Origin: a virus
IMG/VR virus record: IMGVR_UViG_3300027749_000069
Location: 1-64,000 of that record
Direction: 5' to 3' (one strand)
Length of the DNA: 64,000 nucleotides
Within the stretch, counting starts at the first letter, position 1. Each line of letters begins with the position of its first letter. A program made the translations under genes and the position numbers. The notes below the pieces were generated by a model. That model saw only the letters and a program-made list of their open reading frames with translations, did not search any database and had not been told where the DNA came from. Of this stretch, positions 1 through 9,928 are shown one piece after another.

Positions 1-405
1 GATGACAAACTAGATAAGTTTAATCAATACTTTTTAGACATTTTTAACTTAGGAACGGGTAATATGTTACAAAAAAATAATGTATTATCGTGGAACTTAT
101 TTTTTGATTCACCTGAATTAGTTTCAATTCCTGAATGGCAAAATCACGCTGACTATTGGCGTACTTCTATAGGTGCTCATCACGGTTCACCAGGTGGTGA
201 GGGAACAAGTCCAAGATATTTTGATGGAACATATTTTGACACTAAAAATTTCGCCATTAAAGAGGTTATTAAGGAAATTTTAAATCACGTCGTAAAAAAC
301 TCCACATTGAGGAAGGGTTTAATATTACTTGTAGAATATTGTCCTAAAACAATATTTGATATATTTTTAAAGAAGGGTGACCAATCTAAAACAAAAACAA
401 TATGA
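1..405 (+). CDS. Hypothetical protein, 5' end outside window
   Basis: The reading frame is open from base 1, so this is the C-terminal part (134 residues visible) of a gene that starts before the window; an internal ATG at 64 is possible but the codons before it read equally well as coding. The visible part is rich in aromatic residues and has a Gly/His-rich stretch (GAHHGSPGGEG) around residues 58-68. I recognise no family. Its stop overlaps the start of the lipase gene by the ATGA arrangement, so it is the upstream member of the envelope operon. Confidence 0.6.
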   Translation, partial: DDKLDKFNQYFLDIFNLGTGNMLQKNNVLSWNLFFDSPELVSIPEWQNHADYWRTSIGAHHGSPGGEGTSPRYFDGTYFDTKNFAIKEVIKEILNHVVKNSTLRKGLILLVEYCPKTIFDIFLKKGDQSKTKTI

Positions 406-1145
406 CAAAAAACGAAATACTATATAATGTTGGTTTAACTGACAAAGTATACTCAGAACAAAAAGACATTGATTTTAAAGCACAAAGATTAAAATTAATT
501 AAATGGATTGACGATAAAAAAACAGACACACAAGGATTTGTTGCAACAAAAGATAATACAATTTATATTGTATGGAGAGGAAGTTCTTCTAAAAAAGATT
601 TCCAAAACGACGCATCGGTTGATAAAGTTCCTTTTGTTGAAAAAGGTGAAAAAGTCCATATTGGATTTAAAACTTGTTGGGATGCTGTTAAGGATGAAAC
701 ATATAAAGCATTAGATATTGCACTTAAAAACTTGGGTCAAGAACATTCAATTGATAATATTGTTGTTTGCGGTCATAGTTTGGGTGCGGCAGTTTCTACT
801 TTATGTGCTTATGAGATTTATTCAATTTATAAATCAAATAAAATTATATGTTGTACCATCGGTAGTCCAAGAGTAGGTAATAAAGTATTCAAACAGAACT
901 TTGATAAATCACCAATTGAGTCATTAAGAATCGTTCATAATTTAGATGTCGTTACCCGTGCTCCATCAATTGGTTATCATCATGTTAATACAGAATTACG
1001 TATTGATGATGAGGGTAAAATCAAAAAATGGATGATTGATTGGCAAAGAGTTGGTGAGTACATTAAAGCCGTGTTTACTGGTAAAACAGCTAAAGATCAC
1101 ATGACAAATAATTATATAAGTGCATTAAATAAATGGAACCCATAA
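402..1145 (+). CDS. Class 3 lipase-like alpha/beta hydrolase
   Basis: 247 residues. The nucleophile elbow GHSLG (about residues 124-128, Ser126) followed by IGSPRVGN and RIVHNLDVVTRAP (Asp182) and then GYHH (His193/194) is the Ser-Asp-His arrangement of the lipase_3 family (triacylglycerol lipases and phospholipases). No signal peptide is visible, so the enzyme would work in the cytoplasm or be released with the virion or at lysis. Its start overlaps the preceding gene (ATGA) and the next gene begins 1 nt after its stop, so the three are probably co-transcribed. The family call is firm; the substrate is unknown. A role in membrane remodelling or lysis is inference from the envelope-directed neighbours. 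Confidence 0.8.
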   Translation: MTKNEILYNVGLTDKVYSEQKDIDFKAQRLKLIKWIDDKKTDTQGFVATKDNTIYIVWRGSSSKKDFQNDASVDKVPFVEKGEKVHIGFKTCWDAVKDETYKALDIALKNLGQEHSIDNIVVCGHSLGAAVSTLCAYEIYSIYKSNKIICCTIGSPRVGNKVFKQNFDKSPIESLRIVHNLDVVTRAPSIGYHHVNTELRIDDEGKIKKWMIDWQRVGEYIKAVFTGKTAKDHMTNNYISALNKWNP

Positions 1146-1146
1146 T

Positions 1147-1875
1147 ATGAAGTATATAATATTAATTTTAGCCTTTTTTACTATGTGTCTTATGTTTGAT
1201 AAAGTAATGGGGCAAACAATAGGTAAAACAAAGACAGAGTCCTATCAAGCGGACTTTGAAAAGAAAAGAGACATAAGTGCTTACATGGACTACGATGGTC
1301 CTCAAATACCTATTCAAATCCTTAAATGTGGTATATCTGATGAAATGTACGAGATGTACCCTGAATTGAAAGAAAAACGTGTTGGTTTGGGTGTTGCAAA
1401 CATATCTATGGAATACCTTGAAAACCTAAACAGATTCAAATTTACCGAAAGTCAAACCGAGATAAAGAATCGCATGATAAAACAATTTCAGGCATCTCAA
1501 GCTGGCATTTCAGAGAATAAATTAGACGGACGTGGTAAAATCAATTTAGCAAAGTATTTTGTGACTATAGAGTGTTATGACTACTCGGTGTCAGAAGATG
1601 AAACCATCAATTTGAAAGACGGTATTAAAGACAATATGGTGACTCGTATAGGTCTTCAGGTTAGATTTACAGATGCTGAAACAGGTGTCTTGTTTGGTGG
1701 GTCAGGTTTAGGTGAGGCAACTACAAAAAGAGAATTAACTCTTTTATCTGACGCAACAATTGACCCTATTAAGTTCAATCAATCAACAATTAGTATTGCG
1801 ACAAAGAAAGCTTTAGATATTGCATGTGCTAATATCCTTGATAGAATGATTAAAAAAGGTATATTCACAAAATAA
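1147..1875 (+). CDS. Secreted CsgG-like protein
   Basis: 242 residues. Residues 1-23 form a signal peptide ending in MGQ, typical of Bacteroidota exported proteins. The C-terminal half (about 130-235) has the pattern of CsgG-type proteins: a strand-rich block with VTRIGLQVRFTDAETG, a short Gly-rich turn, then a helix ending in ALDIACANILDRM. CsgG is the outer-membrane channel for curli subunits, and related proteins occur widely in Bacteroidota envelopes. There is no lipobox cysteine, so attachment to the outer membrane as in CsgG itself is not shown. Its stop overlaps the FeoA-like start (TAATG). The family call is moderate; the function in a phage is unknown. Confidence 0.5.
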   Translation: MKYIILILAFFTMCLMFDKVMGQTIGKTKTESYQADFEKKRDISAYMDYDGPQIPIQILKCGISDEMYEMYPELKEKRVGLGVANISMEYLENLNRFKFTESQTEIKNRMIKQFQASQAGISENKLDGRGKINLAKYFVTIECYDYSVSEDETINLKDGIKDNMVTRIGLQVRFTDAETGVLFGGSGLGEATTKRELTLLSDATIDPIKFNQSTISIATKKALDIACANILDRMIKKGIFTK

Positions 1876-2108
1876 TGAAATACGAAATAGTGGACGTTCC
1901 ACAAAATAATCCTTGTGAAAATTGTGTACCATGTATGAGATTAAGATTAATGGATATGGGGTTTATACATGGACAAGAAATTGAGATAAGTGATAAAAAA
2001 TTTGGTCTTTATTTGGTAAATATTTTATCCGAGGGAGGACAAATAGATTCAACCATAGGTTTAAGACAAGAAGAATTAGATAGAATATGTTTAAAAGGGG
2101 TTTTATAA
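1875..2108 (+). CDS. FeoA-domain small protein
   Basis: 77 residues. The core RLRLMDMGFIHGQEIEI, then a strand with GLYLVNI, then TIGLRQEELDRI, matches the SH3-like FeoA fold: L..MGF..G..I, a middle strand, and a final ..LR...LD.I. FeoA is a small cytoplasmic partner of the ferrous-iron transporter FeoB; stand-alone FeoA-like domains also act as metal-sensing modules. Cysteines 14, 17 and 20 (CENCVPC) just before the core are an unusual addition and could bind metal. It starts inside the stop of the CsgG-like gene. Its own stop codon lies inside a strong terminator hairpin. Confidence 0.6.
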   Translation: MKYEIVDVPQNNPCENCVPCMRLRLMDMGFIHGQEIEISDKKFGLYLVNILSEGGQIDSTIGLRQEELDRICLKGVL

Positions 2109-2118
2109 CCCCTTTTTT
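2093..2118 (+). terminator. Rho-independent terminator after FeoA-like gene
   Basis: AAAAGGGGTT pairs with AACCCCTTTT around a 4-nt loop and is followed by a T run. The FeoA-like stop codon lies in the hairpin. A TATTTATA promoter octamer follows 2 nt later. Confidence 0.85.
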
Positions 2119-2120
2119 GA

Positions 2121-2128
2121 TATTTATA
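2121..2128 (+). promoter_or_regulatory. Candidate phage late promoter
   Basis: TATTTATA ends 4 nt before the ATG of the PspC-like gene and follows a terminator directly. By T4 late-promoter geometry the transcript would start at the ATG. Confidence 0.55.
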
Positions 2129-2132
2129 CTAT

Positions 2133-2312
2133 ATGAAAAAGTTCAAGAGAGTCCACGACGAAAGTAAAATATTTGGGGTTTGTAGTGGTGTAGGTAACTA
2201 TACAAAAACCGACCCTTTAATATGGAGATTGCTATTTTTCTTTTCCATATTCACACCATTTCCAATAATAACTTGTTATTTATTAACAACAATTTTAACC
2301 AAAATAGTATGA
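2133..2312 (+). CDS. PspC-domain small membrane protein
   Basis: 59 residues. The N-terminal part (VHDESKIFGVCSGVGNYTKTDP) has the PspC signature: a basic start, then GVC.G(V/L)..Y...DP.(I/L).R. Residues about 31-58 form one hydrophobic membrane segment. PspC is a membrane component of the phage-shock envelope-stress response, and single-domain PspC proteins are common in Bacteroidota. The ATG lies 4 nt after a TATTTATA octamer. The stop overlaps the next start (ATGA), so it is coupled to the exported protein downstream. The family call is good; whether it buffers or perturbs the host membrane is unknown. Confidence 0.75.
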   Translation: MKKFKRVHDESKIFGVCSGVGNYTKTDPLIWRLLFFFSIFTPFPIITCYLLTTILTKIV

Positions 2313-3136
2313 AAAAAATTTTATTACTAACATTACTAATCCCAACTCTAATGTTTGGTCAAGTATCAAGTTGGAGACAGACTGGTGGAAGTGTTTCACC
2401 ACAAACAACACAATCAGCACCAAGAGTTCAACCATCTGTACCACAACAACAAAATAATGTGAGTAGCTGGAGAACACAAACTGCACCAATAAGACCAGGC
2501 GATAATTTTCAGGGACAACCTTTAACAAGAAGATATAGATATACGGATATGAATCCTTATGGATTACAATATGGGATATATGGATATTACCAACCTTATC
2601 CTTATATATGGTATGATGATTATGGATGGAGACAAAGAAGTGTAGTTAGAATATATGAAAACGGAAGAAGAGATACTGTTGCATCAACACCTGTATTATT
2701 TTCGGCAGGTATTGGACATACGAATAACAAACAAACCTCATTTTGGGGATTGATTGGTAGTAATAAAGGATATTTTATTATGGACTATGTAATGACTTAC
2801 GCAATAGATCAAAACCAATACTTTCCATATGGTCAAATTAACAATGTTGACTTTCCACTTAGTAAAAACGATTGGAAAAAAGAATCAACTTTCTATGTTG
2901 GTGGTGGTAAAAGAATTGGTAAAATAGGAATACACGGTATGATAGGATTCGGTAATGAAGTTATTAGATGGCAAGGTAAAGATGCTATTGGTGGTATATC
3001 GTTTCCAAAATCAAATTCATCATTTACAACATTTAAAGTTGGTATTATAAAAGATTTTAAATTTGTTACATTAAAAGTAGATGCCGACCCAATAAGAGGA
3101 TACACACAAATATCAATAGGTTTGAATAACAAATAA
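2309..3136 (+). CDS. Exported, probably outer-membrane protein
   Basis: 275 residues from the ATG at 2309, chosen because it overlaps the PspC-like stop and begins a signal peptide (residues 1-18, ending LMFGQ). An upstream in-frame ATG at 2222 would add 29 residues that read as the PspC gene in another frame. After the signal come a Gln/Pro/Ser-rich linker, a Tyr/Trp-rich stretch (YGLQYGIYGYYQPYPYIWYD), then about 170 residues of alternating Gly/aromatic strands resembling an outer-membrane beta-barrel. I recognise no named family. Its stop overlaps the start of the next exported protein. Confidence 0.65.
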   Translation: MKKILLLTLLIPTLMFGQVSSWRQTGGSVSPQTTQSAPRVQPSVPQQQNNVSSWRTQTAPIRPGDNFQGQPLTRRYRYTDMNPYGLQYGIYGYYQPYPYIWYDDYGWRQRSVVRIYENGRRDTVASTPVLFSAGIGHTNNKQTSFWGLIGSNKGYFIMDYVMTYAIDQNQYFPYGQINNVDFPLSKNDWKKESTFYVGGGKRIGKIGIHGMIGFGNEVIRWQGKDAIGGISFPKSNSSFTTFKVGIIKDFKFVTLKVDADPIRGYTQISIGLNNK

Positions 3137-4713
3137 TGAAAAAATATATTATCTCTCTCCTAATATTATTTTTTTGTAGTAAGTCATTCGGACAAACTAT
3201 AACTCAAACATATATTGATCCATGTGATAATAAAGTATATGTTGTTGTAATTCCATTTGGACAAAATCAAACAGTTGCAGTTATTAGAGGTAAATCTAAA
3301 ATAGTTACGTTAGCTGACATGAGTAGTGGTGCGTTCCAAGTTTGGGTTAATAGTATATTCGCAACACCTTGTCCACAAAACGATGCAATAAGATTAGCAC
3401 AGGAAGCGGCGGCAAGAGCTGCCGCAGATGCTGCAGCAAGAGCCGCAGCAGACGCAGCTGCAAAGGCAGCAGCAGATGCCGCTGCGAAAGCAGCATCAGA
3501 CGCGGCGGCAAAAGCCGCATCAGATGCCGCAGCGAAAGCAGCCGCAAGTGCTGCAAGTGGAGCGGCAAGCGGTGCGGCATCATCTGCAGCGAGTGGAGCA
3601 GCATCATCCGCAGCAAGTGGAGCGGCAGCATCCGCGGCGGCGTCAACTCCACCACCAATAAACATTGCACCCCCTCCACCACCACCCGTAGTTGCTGCTC
3701 CCCCACCAACAGCGGCACCACCACCTGCAAGTAGTTCGTCATCCCCACCTCCGGCAAGTGGCGGTTCATCTTCTTCATCAAGTAGTTCATCATCAACAGA
3801 AGCAAAACCTGCTGAGGCAAAACCCGCAGAAACTAAACCTGCTGAAACTAAATCGGATAAACCCGCAGAACAAAAAACCGAAGAAAAGAAAACTGAAGCT
3901 AAAACCGAAGAAAAGAAAGAGGAAACTAAAACCGAAGAAAAGAAATCAGAAGAAAAAAAGACCGAGGAGAAAAAAGAAGAAGCTAAAAAAGAGGAAGAGA
4001 AAAAGAAAGAGGAAGAAAAGAAAAAAGAAGAAGAAAAAAAGAAAAAACAAGAGGTAACAAATCCAACATTGTTAGCGTCAGATATAACTGTTGCTGAAGC
4101 TAGTGTGGGTAAATATTTAGCATCCATATCATTAGGACTAAGTAAATCATCTATGGCTGGTGATGAAAGTTATAGTGGTGGATTGATGATTAATAGTGAT
4201 TTGAGTTCTATTGTTATGACGGGTGGATATACCAAAATGGGAATGACATCTGACGGACAATTAGACGCCATACATTCATATGGAACTGCATTTGCATATT
4301 TGGCAGGTAACTATATGAACTTAATGGGTTATACTTGGATTAAACCAACACCTAAAAAGGGAACATTTGGTTATAACGTTGGTGTCATTAATTTATTTCT
4401 TAAAAACGATAATGGTGGGTTTGATTATAATATGGCAAGTTCTGCAATTGCATTTTGGACCAAACCTTACATCTATTCAAAAAAACTTACAATATCACCT
4501 CAAGTGTTCACGATGTTCTCACCTATCTCTTGGAATAGTGTCACAGGAGCATCGACAGTTAATAGACATATGGGTTTCTTATTAGGAACTGCATTTGATT
4601 ATAAACTTAGTAAACGATTTGGGTTTGCATTTAACTACAAAATAAGTGGTAACACTAAACCAGGTTCCGTATTTTTAAGTAACTTTCAAATAGGTAGTAG
4701 AATGGTATTATAA
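3136..4713 (+). CDS. Exported protein with Ala-rich stalk and C-terminal barrel-like domain
   Basis: 525 residues. Signal peptide 1-20 (ends KSFGQ). A short N-terminal domain (21-85) follows. Next is a long alanine-rich repeat (about 90-170, AAxAAADAAA units), Pro- and Ser-rich linkers (about 172-220) and a Lys/Glu-rich region to about 306. The C-terminal 215 residues are Gly/aromatic strand-rich and resemble an outer-membrane barrel, but the final residues (RMVL) are not a classic terminal Phe. The layout suggests a surface protein with a helical periplasmic or extracellular stalk. It is the last gene of the envelope cluster. No named family is recognised. Confidence 0.65.
   Translation: MKKYIISLLILFFCSKSFGQTITQTYIDPCDNKVYVVVIPFGQNQTVAVIRGKSKIVTLADMSSGAFQVWVNSIFATPCPQNDAIRLAQEAAARAAADAAARAAADAAAKAAADAAAKAASDAAAKAASDAAAKAAASAASGAASGAASSAASGAASSAASGAAASAAASTPPPINIAPPPPPPVVAAPPPTAAPPPASSSSSPPPASGGSSSSSSSSSSTEAKPAEAKPAETKPAETKSDKPAEQKTEEKKTEAKTEEKKEETKTEEKKSEEKKTEEKKEEAKKEEEKKKEEEKKKEEEKKKKQEVTNPTLLASDITVAEASVGKYLASISLGLSKSSMAGDESYSGGLMINSDLSSIVMTGGYTKMGMTSDGQLDAIHSYGTAFAYLAGNYMNLMGYTWIKPTPKKGTFGYNVGVINLFLKNDNGGFDYNMASSAIAFWTKPYIYSKKLTISPQVFTMFSPISWNSVTGASTVNRHMGFLLGTAFDYKLSKRFGFAFNYKISGNTKPGSVFLSNFQIGSRMVL
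3403..4053 (+). repeat. Low-complexity coding repeats (Ala, Pro, Ser, Lys/Glu)
   Basis: Degenerate GCN-rich short repeats encode Ala-Ala-(Lys/Arg/Asp/Ser) units to about 3648, followed by Pro and Ser runs, then AAA/GAA-rich Lys-Glu repeats. Long open frames on the other strand here are artefacts of the composition. Confidence 0.85.
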
Positions 4714-4717
4714 AAAA

Positions 4718-4743
4718 ATCCCCGAAGTGAAAACTCCGAGGAT
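4718..4743 (-). terminator. Terminator between convergent genes
   Basis: Imperfect 10-bp stem (ATCCTCGGAG with CTTCGGGGAT, read on the minus strand), followed on the minus strand by TTTTTTT. It suits the minus-strand gene at 4801-5127. On the plus strand there is no T run. Confidence 0.55.
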
Positions 4744-5202: not shown

Positions 5203-5691
5203 TTATTCGTTATCCATAGATTTATCCCATTTTGCTTTTCTAACCTCTGGAGATAACATTAATGGTTCATCTATTGTATGTTCAATTTTAACACTTATAC
5301 AGGTTTGAGGTAACCTACAATTTTTTAAATAATTGTTAATATATCCCATCATATTGGCACTTCCAATAGGGTTTGCCGAATGGATATAAATTTGAGGTAA
5401 GGGTATTTTTTCATTCATACTTTCAGCAACCAAATATCTACAACAATCCATACCAGTTTTTTCTTCTATGTTGTTATAATCCAACATATAATTATTTTTT
5501 ACATTTGTATAATATTCTATCATGGCACCTTCACCTAAATCATGATCTAAAGATATAACTTCAAAATTACCTAATCCGTGTAATTTAATTGACGCCACAA
5601 ATTCATCATAATTACGGGCAATTATCCAATCTTTAGCTAATGGTGTTCTTACATCATCAAGATATAATCTCAATTTATTATTAATTTTCAT
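5203..5691 (-). CDS. Cyclic-phosphate-processing receiver-domain (cREC-like) protein
   Basis: 162 residues. The protein shows receiver-fold landmarks: LYLDDVRTP (acidic pair Asp12/13), VISLDHDLG (Asp49, His50, Asp51), TGMDCCRYL and IHSANPIGSANM (His103, Ser104, Asn106). This combination, with the His-Ser-x-Asn and DHDLG signatures, is that of the cREC family, predicted to process 2',3'-cyclic phosphates at RNA ends. Its start overlaps the RNA ligase stop by 11 nt, so the two are translationally coupled. That coupling supports a joint role in sealing RNA breaks. The family call rests on motif memory and could not be searched here; an ordinary receiver-like domain is the alternative. Confidence 0.7.
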   Translation of the reverse strand: MKINNKLRLYLDDVRTPLAKDWIIARNYDEFVASIKLHGLGNFEVISLDHDLGEGAMIEYYTNVKNNYMLDYNNIEEKTGMDCCRYLVAESMNEKIPLPQIYIHSANPIGSANMMGYINNYLKNCRLPQTCISVKIEHTIDEPLMLSPEVRKAKWDKSMDNE

Positions 5692-7477: not shown

Positions 7478-7672
7478 TTATTTTTTAGGTACATCTAGTT
7501 TCACTTCACCACCCGTTGTAGGTGTTGTAGTAGTACTATCAGCAACTACTGCAGTTGTATCTGCAACAGGTGCTACTGTAGAGTCCGTTGTTTTTTTTGC
7601 GGCCGACCCAGAACCACATGCTGTTAGTGTAAGTGCTACACCAAGAGCTAAGATAAATGTTAATTTTTTCAT
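7478..7672 (-). CDS. Small lipoprotein
   Basis: 64 residues. MKKLTFILALGVALTLTAC is a type II signal peptide with lipobox LTAC (Cys19). The mature part is only about 46 residues: a Gly/Ser start, then a Thr/Ala/Val-rich low-complexity region and a charged end. This is the usual look of small Bacteroidota lipoproteins. Gly-Ser-Gly follows Cys19, so the +2 residue gives no inner-membrane retention signal. A near-consensus host-type promoter lies immediately upstream. A role in superinfection exclusion or lysis is possible but only inferred from what phage lipoproteins often do. Confidence 0.75.
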   Translation of the reverse strand: MKKLTFILALGVALTLTACGSGSAAKKTTDSTVAPVADTTAVVADSTTTTPTTGGEVKLDVPKK

Positions 7673-7861: not shown

Positions 7862-9874
7862 TTATTTTTTAGAAATTAATAATTTTTCGTCTTTATATTT
7901 AAGATTTATTAATTTACCCTCAACAATATTACCTTTTAAAATTTCTTCGCTTAAAAAATCCTCACAAAGATTTTGAATAATTCTTTTAACCGGTCTCGCC
8001 CCGTACTCTTCTTGTGAATTTAATTCAAATACTCTATTGGTAACTGTTTTGTCAAAATTAACTTTATAACCTTTATCTTTTAATCTATTTGACAATCTAT
8101 CAATTTCAAGATCAATAATTTTTTTCAGTGTTTCTTCGTTCAGCGCATTAAATAAAATTATGTCATCAATACGATTTAAAAACTCAGGATTAAAATGTTG
8201 TTTCAACGCTTTTTGTATCATTGTTTTTCTAACCTCATATTTTTGAACTTCGCTTGATGATGTACTAAATCCAACACCACCACCAAATTCAGAAACACGT
8301 TTTGCTCCAATGTTAGATGTCATAATAACCAAACAATTTGTAAAATTAACTTTTCTACCAAATGAATCCGTCAAATGACCTTCATCTAAAATTTGTAATA
8401 ATATGTTAAACACGTCTTTATGTGCCTTCTCAATTTCATCAAATAAAATTACAGAGAAGGGGTTATTTTTAACTTTCTCGGTTAACTGACCTCCTTCATC
8501 ATACCCAACAAAACCTGGAGGAGAACCAATCAATTTTGATACGTTATGTCTATCCATATATTCACTCATATCAACACGAATGATTTTATCTTCATCACCA
8601 AACAAGTATTGTGCTAATGTTTTGGCAAGATAAGTTTTACCTACACCAGTTGAACCTAAGAATATGAATGAACCAATAGGTTTATTCGCGTCTTTAATAC
8701 CTACTCTATTTCTTCTGATTGACCTTGATATTGTAGAAATCGCTTCAGGTTGACCAATAACTTTTTCAGATAACAAATCCTCAAGTTGTAATAACTTTTG
8801 AGTTTCTTTTGCGTCAAGTTTACTAATTGGTACCCCTGTCATTTGAGAAATGATTTCATAAACATTATCAATAGTAATTGGTATCTTATTATCTTTTTGT
8901 TTTTCAGACCATTTATATTTCTCCTCTTCAAGTTTAGTAACTACTTTCTTTTCTTCGTCTCTCAATTTTGCCGCTTGTTCATAATTCTGACTTTTAACAA
9001 CTTGTATTTTTTTCTCTTTGATTTCATCAATTTGAAATTTTAATTTTTCAATTGATTCGGGAATTCTTGTTGATATTCTTTTTTCAGAACCCAATTCATC
9101 TAATACGTCAATTGCCTTATCGGGAAATTGTCTTTCGGTTATGTATCTTCCAGCTAACCTTACAATTACTTCAATTACACCATCCTCGTATGTTACTTTG
9201 TGAAAATCTTGATATGACGTTGTTAGGTTTTTTAAAATTTCAATTGTTTCTAACTCTGTTGGTTCCTTTAGGATTATTTTTTGAAATCTTCTAACGAGCG
9301 CACTGTCTTTTTCAATGTGTTTTTTAAATTCATCAAAAGTTGTTGCACCAATACATTGTATTTCACCTCTTGCTAATGCTGGTTTAAGAATATTTGCGGC
9401 ATCCATAGAACCACTCGCATTTCCTGCACCAACCATGGTATGAAGTTCATCAATAAAAACAATTACGTTCGGTGCTTCAACCAACTCATTTAAAATTGCC
9501 TTAATTCTTTCTTCAAATTGACCACGATATTTTGTTCCAGCAACAAGTGATGTTAAATCCAAAGACATAATTCTTTTATCTAAAAGATTTGTTGGACAAT
9601 CACCTTTGTGAATCATTAACGCAAGTTTCTCAACTAATGCAGATTTACCGACACCAGCGTCACCAACAATAACTGCGTTGTTTTTCTTTTTACGAGATAG
9701 AATTTGTGCAATTCTTTTTACTTCAACGTCCCTACCAACAATAGGGTCAATCTTACCTTCCTCGGCCATCTTAATAAGATCACGAGAGAAGTTATCTAAA
9801 ATTGGGGTGTTAGAACCTTTTCTAACTTTCTTTGGGTTTGTGGTTGGACCATCTTCAAAAAAATCTACTGACAT
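7862..9874 (-). CDS. ClpC/ClpA-type AAA+ unfoldase lacking the N-domain
   Basis: 670 residues from the ATG at 9874 (MSVDFFEDG; an in-frame start at 9910 adds 12 poorly coding residues). First AAA+ module: Walker A GDAGVGKSA (71-79), Walker B VIVFIDE (137-143). A charged coiled middle with a UVR-like stretch (about 285-315). Second AAA+ module: GSTGVGKT (407-414) and VILFDEIEKAH. The VGF loop at 534-536 sits where ClpC docks ClpP. The usual N-terminal Clp repeat domain is absent. No clpP is seen here, so it would work with host ClpP or alone. A host-type promoter drives it, divergent from the Hsp20 gene. Confidence 0.85.
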   Translation of the reverse strand: MSVDFFEDGPTTNPKKVRKGSNTPILDNFSRDLIKMAEEGKIDPIVGRDVEVKRIAQILSRKKKNNAVIVGDAGVGKSALVEKLALMIHKGDCPTNLLDKRIMSLDLTSLVAGTKYRGQFEERIKAILNELVEAPNVIVFIDELHTMVGAGNASGSMDAANILKPALARGEIQCIGATTFDEFKKHIEKDSALVRRFQKIILKEPTELETIEILKNLTTSYQDFHKVTYEDGVIEVIVRLAGRYITERQFPDKAIDVLDELGSEKRISTRIPESIEKLKFQIDEIKEKKIQVVKSQNYEQAAKLRDEEKKVVTKLEEEKYKWSEKQKDNKIPITIDNVYEIISQMTGVPISKLDAKETQKLLQLEDLLSEKVIGQPEAISTISRSIRRNRVGIKDANKPIGSFIFLGSTGVGKTYLAKTLAQYLFGDEDKIIRVDMSEYMDRHNVSKLIGSPPGFVGYDEGGQLTEKVKNNPFSVILFDEIEKAHKDVFNILLQILDEGHLTDSFGRKVNFTNCLVIMTSNIGAKRVSEFGGGVGFSTSSSEVQKYEVRKTMIQKALKQHFNPEFLNRIDDIILFNALNEETLKKIIDLEIDRLSNRLKDKGYKVNFDKTVTNRVFELNSQEEYGARPVKRIIQNLCEDFLSEEILKGNIVEGKLINLKYKDEKLLISKK

Positions 9875-9896
9875 ATGATATAAGTTTAATTCAATA

Positions 9897-9928
9897 CAAA
9901 CATAACACAAATAATACTAAAAAACAAA
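9897..9928 (-). promoter_or_regulatory. Host-type promoter of ClpC-like gene
   Basis: On the minus strand TTTG, 20 nt, TATGTTTG: a full match to the Bacteroidota pattern, 22 nt before the preferred start at 9874. Confidence 0.65.

Follow-up and report, generated by a model that had tools for sequence, protein, structure and literature searches.

Why would a lytic phage of the T4 type carry genes for the envelope of the cell that it infects? The question is raised by the left end of a 64,000-nucleotide stretch of viral DNA (hereafter the window; bases 1-64000 of the 94,382-base virus record IMGVR_UViG_3300027749_000069), where six consecutive genes encode a lipase, a CsgG-like protein, FeoA- and PspC-domain proteins, and two exported proteins, here termed g5 and g6. 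A preliminary description of this DNA, made from the sequence alone, treated these genes as one cluster that may alter the host outer membrane, for example by excluding other phages or aiding release. Comparison with related loci shows that the window holds only the right-hand part of a longer plus-strand array. Computational evidence throughout suggests, in a judgement that is almost evenly poised, that the cluster forms the right-hand part of a phage-specific module for the envelope in T4-type phages of Bacteroidota, one that rebuilds the surface of the infected cell late in infection.

A phage-borne array with a fixed core

The cluster lies on a T4-type phage contig, as the preliminary description had it, since genes for terminase, portal, major head, tail sheath, and T4-type baseplate proteins share that contig. 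Moreover, about 120 distinct related viral loci carry cluster genes, which excludes the concern, voiced in that description, that the left end is contaminating host DNA. The lipase gene finds matches in 62 viral-contig stretches and the CsgG-like gene in 238. Among 84,980 cellular genomes scanned, the CsgG-like family occurred on only two contigs of metagenome-assembled genomes; one, assigned to Bacteroidetes, is a binned phage, as shown by the T4-type major head gene on it, and the other is a short Flavobacterium contig. No cellular source of the family is thus known. Among deposited phages, the gene is carried by Flavobacterium phage immuto (vB_FspM_immuto) alone, which is the sole cultured carrier. 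All six cluster genes are under purifying selection (ratio of nonsynonymous to synonymous substitution, dN/dS, 0.05-0.50), and therefore none is a decaying passenger.

The related loci fall into two clades, one including the window and one including immuto, whose CsgG-like proteins are about 51% identical. In the window clade, the array begins with a secreted protein of 640-770 amino acids (c6), a 297-amino-acid barrel protein related to g6, two lipoproteins, and c4, an inner-membrane protein of about 105 amino acids with one transmembrane segment and a tail ending in Trp. These are followed by c3, small transmembrane proteins, the lipase where present, the CsgG-like gene, FeoA, PspC, and g5 where present, and g6. 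In the immuto clade, the order is one or more adhesins, c4, the CsgG-like gene, g6, and an exported protein of 150 amino acids. Counting only loci with flanks long enough, g6 lies downstream of the CsgG-like gene at 62/62 window-clade and 34/34 immuto-clade loci (96/96 in all), c6 lies upstream of it at 40/43 and 37/37 (77/80), and c4 lies upstream at 39/43 and 35/37 (74/80). The core in both clades consists of the c6 adhesin, c4, the CsgG-like protein, and g6. Direct homology was found between g6 and g6b (2.2e-8); the c8, c40, and iterated g6b profiles turned mixed on iteration and their counts were not used. Neither c4 nor the small transmembrane proteins had a useful match in Pfam or PHROG.

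The remaining genes of the cluster are optional. Among 72 window-clade loci, the lipase is present at 17, FeoA at 11, PspC at 8, and g5 at 40, and none of the four occurs at any of 41 immuto-clade loci; further, the lipase may stand on either side of the CsgG-like gene. The relatives examined do not support treating the six genes as one unit: a search for the same cluster in related phages, as had been proposed, recovers the CsgG-like/g6 pair as fixed and the other four genes as optional insertions. In relatives, the fixed pair is tied to genes that lie beyond the contig end of the window.

The CsgG-like protein and g6

The CsgG-like protein was modeled with AlphaFold from a 60-sequence alignment (predicted local distance difference test, pLDDT, 77). 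The top Foldseek matches of this monomer model are to CsgG (E 3.4e-7, probability 1.0, template modeling score ~0.45-0.50), and PelC is the next structural match. No match was found in Pfam, PHROG, NCBIfam, or PDB sequences, and the label "CsgG-like" used in the preliminary description therefore stands at the level of the fold and not at that of a sequence family. PF03783 (CsgG) was unmatched in the window record, five relatives, and immuto while positive controls did match, which rules out strict membership among curli systems. The window protein has no lipobox, its signal peptide ending in MGQ without a Cys, and a simple rule assigned a Q-type signal peptide to 103 of 113 homologs. At the position of the first membrane hairpin of CsgG, the model places a strongly charged hairpin, EDETINLKDGIKDN (approximately residues 145-169), and no second membrane hairpin was seen before the last helix of this pLDDT 77 monomer. 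Lacking a lipobox, membrane hairpins, and a PF03783 match, the protein is probably not a curli pore; the model suggests a periplasmic protein of the CsgG/PelC fold that probably forms no pore itself. No CsgE/CsgF or CsgA/B-type matches or curlin-like repeats were detected among the cluster and neighbor proteins scanned against Pfam. It should be noted that, in immuto-type loci, the exported protein 3' of g6 (149-151 amino acids; locus L144:14227-14682) resembles, by eye, the second half of the CsgG-like protein.

The fixed partner, g6, is predicted to comprise a small alpha/beta N-terminal domain, an Ala-rich helix, a disordered linker rich in Ser, Lys, and Glu, a short plug-like helix, and a 12-stranded barrel (AlphaFold pLDDT mostly 80-90). 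Its best Foldseek matches are NanC, FapF, KdgM, and autotransporter barrels. According to the model, g6 would be a 12-stranded outer-membrane barrel with a plug-like helix and a long stalk, resembling FapF. Since oligosaccharide porins of the NanC/KdgM type rank among the best structural matches, and since FeoA and PspC domains are present, the barrel could instead, together with FeoA, PspC, and the lipase, aid nutrient uptake or tolerance of envelope stress. Such a role in transport is quite improbable, given that FeoA, PspC, and the lipase are optional and that a stalk, an N-terminal domain, and a CsgG-like partner are not porin features. The optional neighbor g5 contains two (V)SxWR motifs and a beta-rich C-terminal domain that by inspection resembles an 8-stranded barrel; nothing useful was found for it in Pfam, PHROG, or NCBIfam.

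Adhesins encoded upstream of the core pair

In immuto, gp013 carries a C-type lectin domain (Lectin_C, 3e-15), and gp015 carries a cohesin domain (Cohesin, 5.9e-9) and a type IX C-terminal domain (Por_Secre_tail, 2.4e-8, over the cut-off). Among 30 c6-like proteins from both clades, Cohesin was matched in 21, Por_Secre_tail (counted at E<=0.01) in 16, Lectin_C in 9, and Dockerin_1 in 3, the best Dockerin_1 match reaching 2.2e-4. The lectin/cohesin genes of immuto (L144:8800-11695) are annotated merely as encoding lectin/cohesin-domain proteins, and no relevant report of a phage-encoded cohesin or type IX cargo was found in the literature.

Phage particles are known to bear lectin and Ig-like domains, and the lectin-bearing proteins could therefore be structural parts of the virion, for which late-type expression (described below) would be suitable. 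This is most improbable: Sec and type IX signals would take these proteins away from the cytoplasm, the site of virion assembly.

Presumptive signals for late expression

An intrinsic-terminator-like hairpin spans the feoA stop codon, and the octamer TATTTATA lies directly 5' of pspC; the two occur together in several relatives. The octamer, which on the opposite strand reads as the T4 late element TATAAATA, is enriched about 21-fold upstream of open reading frames (ORFs) in the window's record, where copies precede terminase, portal, sheath, and other structural genes. In relatives, it was found upstream of pspC at 5/7 loci, g5 at 19/38, the gene before the lipase at 5/8, and csgG at 15/72, where the background is 1.5%; relatedness among the sequences keeps these counts from being independent. 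TATTTATA is thus the presumptive late promoter of this phage group, and its position after a terminator-like hairpin makes PspC-g5-g6 look like a late transcription unit of its own.

Timing bears on two further explanations, both of them uses foreseen in the preliminary description. The first is a lysis or release module, in which the small transmembrane proteins c3, c12/c13, and c8 would be holin-like, c4 would act like a spanin of the inner membrane, and the outer membrane would be breached by the CsgG-fold protein together with g6. The late-type promoter suits such a module, several small membrane proteins do sit between c4 and csgG, and a role in lysis has been hypothesized for CsgGF of methylophage Melnitz (PMC9004378). 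However, Pfam and PHROG place none of the small transmembrane proteins in a holin or spanin family, and the core travels with lectin/cohesin adhesins that lysis does not need. Endolysins, where located, are distant: a glucosaminidase-type enzyme lies about 6 kb off in immuto and roughly 40-50 kb off in two relatives. Searches with Phage_lysozyme and GH108 located no endolysin near the cluster, although the GH108 control gave no match. A holin and an endolysin were thus not found together at the module, and an aid to release, while compatible with a late-type promoter, has no recognizable endolysin beside it. Lysis is, on this evidence, an unlikely function.

The second is superinfection exclusion, in which the phage would hide or alter surface receptors and so block adsorption or injection by other phages. 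Surface lectins, barrels, and lipoproteins would change receptors, and the exported Endonuclease_NS nucleases of immuto-type loci may be able to cut incoming DNA. Exclusion is normally an early function, and the presumptive late promoter makes it distinctly unlikely. The nucleases, exported DNA/RNA non-specific endonucleases, adjoin the module at L144:8208-8786 and L117:12521-13156, and from there could cut incoming DNA in the periplasm.

A proposed late remodeling of the host surface

Late, phage-directed remodeling of the cell surface is the best reading of these observations, a classical lysis cassette and early exclusion being less supported; export, late timing, and surface adhesion, taken as the features of the core, are best fitted by a trans-envelope assembly that modifies the surface. 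In such a scheme, the proteins would be exported by the host Sec system late in infection, and c4 and g6 would join with the CsgG-fold protein, perhaps ring-shaped as in PelC, in an assembly across the envelope. The g6 barrel, gated by its plug helix and reached through a periplasmic stalk, would export or anchor material at the surface. The infected cell would be coated with lectin/cohesin adhesins, which in many relatives bear the tag for secretion by the host type IX system, and the sticky surface so rebuilt may help progeny to spread, for example by drawing fresh hosts toward the lysing cell or by reducing the loss of progeny on debris. A bolder version, in which a phage-only trans-envelope assembly of the CsgG/PelC-fold protein, the FapF-like plugged barrel, and an inner-membrane anchor would, together with the host type IX system, build a cohesin/lectin scaffold on infected Bacteroidota cells, a virus-encoded surface organelle of a type unknown in cells, is rather doubtful. 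The earlier suggestion that the host outer membrane is altered is in keeping with envelope-directed phage genes, although not with the six genes acting as a unit.

Several points weigh against this interpretation. First, the record of the window stops short of c6 and c4 and carries neither elsewhere; both are supplied by relatives. Second, NanC and not FapF tops the Foldseek list of g6, and the match is generic (template modeling score ~0.5-0.7 to targets). Third, the late promoter is read from motif position alone, and the confidence of the CsgG-like model is limited to pLDDT 77. Finally, adhesins with a type IX signal would need no phage channel.

Gene layout in the window

All six ORFs exist on the plus strand as first described (Table 1), and the lipase, FeoA, and PspC assignments hold, each match exceeding its Pfam cut-off.

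Table 1. Features of the envelope cluster and associated signals in the window.
Feature	Position	Strand	Remark
ORF cut by contig end	1-405	+	3' part; full length 351-357 amino acids in relatives
Class-3 lipase (Lipase_3), without signal peptide	402-1145	+	Pfam 5.6e-27
CsgG/PelC-fold periplasmic protein (probable), Q-rule signal peptide	1147-1875	+	fixed core gene
FeoA-domain protein, 77 amino acids	1875-2108	+	Pfam 1.6e-5; optional
Intrinsic-terminator-like hairpin across feoA stop	2093-2116	+	kept in several relatives
TATTTATA, presumptive late promoter element directly 5' of pspC	2121-2128	+	
PspC-domain membrane protein, 59 amino acids	2133-2312	+	Pfam 1e-13; optional
g5, 275 amino acids, Q-rule signal peptide	2309-3136	+	optional
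g6, signal peptide, predicted outer-membrane barrel	3136-4713	+	fixed core gene
g6 N-terminal domain, residues 22-75	3199-3360	+	part in common with immuto gp018
g6 12-stranded beta-barrel, residues 311-525	4066-4710	+	model
Terminator-like hairpin with U-run, between convergent genes	4718-4743	-	
TATTTATA octamers	2121-2128, 15825, 17656, 54836, 59105, 61045, others		upstream of structural genes

The cluster does not begin with the lipase, as had been supposed: an ORF running off the contig start overlaps it by 4 bases (402-405), and the array of relatives extends upstream. Joining by overlaps was found at 1875, 2309-2312, and 3136; it fails between feoA and pspC, which are parted by the hairpin and the probable late promoter. 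Among the six proteins, the CsgG-like protein, g5, and g6 alone have Sec signal peptides, all three ending in GQ, as first noted; the lipase has none and is not a visibly exported protein. In Bacteroidetes, signal peptidase I leaves an N-terminal glutamine, the Q-rule (PMC5837995), which phages of Porphyromonas gingivalis also obey (PMC10367356). The GQ ending is an instance of this rule and points to a Bacteroidota host, not to proteins of a special class. When 70 window ORFs were roughly scanned, g5 being missed solely through an earlier start chosen by the caller, the only other export signal, outside the cluster, belonged to a 64-amino-acid lipoprotein (7478-7672, minus strand); the concentration of envelope genes, remarked on at the outset as unusual, is thus not due to chance.

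Compared with locus L017, feoA is nearly identical at silent sites (proportion of synonymous differences, pS, 0.02, versus 0.2-0.55 for neighboring genes), a sign of recent gene exchange. Beyond the cluster, the minus strand encodes a cyclic-phosphate processing receiver domain protein (5203-5691; cREC_REC, PF20274) adjoining an RNA ligase gene, and a phage-encoded Clp-type ATPase (7862-9910; phrog_4871, ATP-dependent protease).

Relation to known systems

Curli (type VIII) genes, namely csgG, csgF, and csgA/B, have been reported in pelagiphages and methylophage Melnitz (PMC7029224, PMC9004378, PMC9599517), and a T4-like virus assigned to marine Bacteroidetes has curli-type genes as well (PMC7198788). 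Like those modules, the array described here is phage-borne, partly in T4-type phages, and sets a CsgG-fold protein beside exported adhesion proteins. Unlike them, it has no PF03783 match, no lipobox, and, in the model, no membrane hairpins, and its CsgG-fold protein is partnered by a 12-stranded barrel and cohesin/lectin proteins in place of CsgF or CsgA/B. In the PelC-PelB system (PMC12141448), a CsgG-fold periplasmic protein without membrane hairpins is likewise paired with an outer-membrane barrel, but PelC is a lipoprotein, the PelB barrel has 16 strands, and no polysaccharide synthase was seen here. FapF of Pseudomonas secretes amyloid through a plugged barrel of 12 strands that sits on a periplasmic coiled coil (PMC5557850). 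Twelve strands, a plug helix, a helical stalk in the periplasm, and a disordered linker are common to FapF and the g6 model; g6 differs in its extra N-terminal domain and in having no sequence match, a profile search of PDB with g6 having failed to find FapF, and its stalk is modeled as an Ala-rich helix. No companion fapA-E-like genes were found among the proteins scanned. A further close counterpart is immuto gp013-gp018, which combines lectin, cohesin with a type IX signal, c4, a CsgG-like protein, and a g6-type protein. Immuto differs in lacking the lipase, FeoA, PspC, and g5, in an adhesin split over three genes, and in a g6-type barrel diverged past profile detection.

Phage-borne CsgG genes and curli clusters are thus already known, and the module itself is hardly described; what seems new is the lack of csgF/csgA, a CsgG-fold protein that is seemingly not a pore, a FapF-like barrel, and cohesin/lectin adhesins. 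Such a module would offer a second, unrelated-looking phage answer, alongside the curli genes of marine phages, to why lytic phages carry machinery for the envelope and for adhesion. Since immuto has been cultured with its host, the question is directly testable. The module further suggests that phages use the type IX secretion route of the host and that common freshwater viruses encode adhesins not yet annotated.

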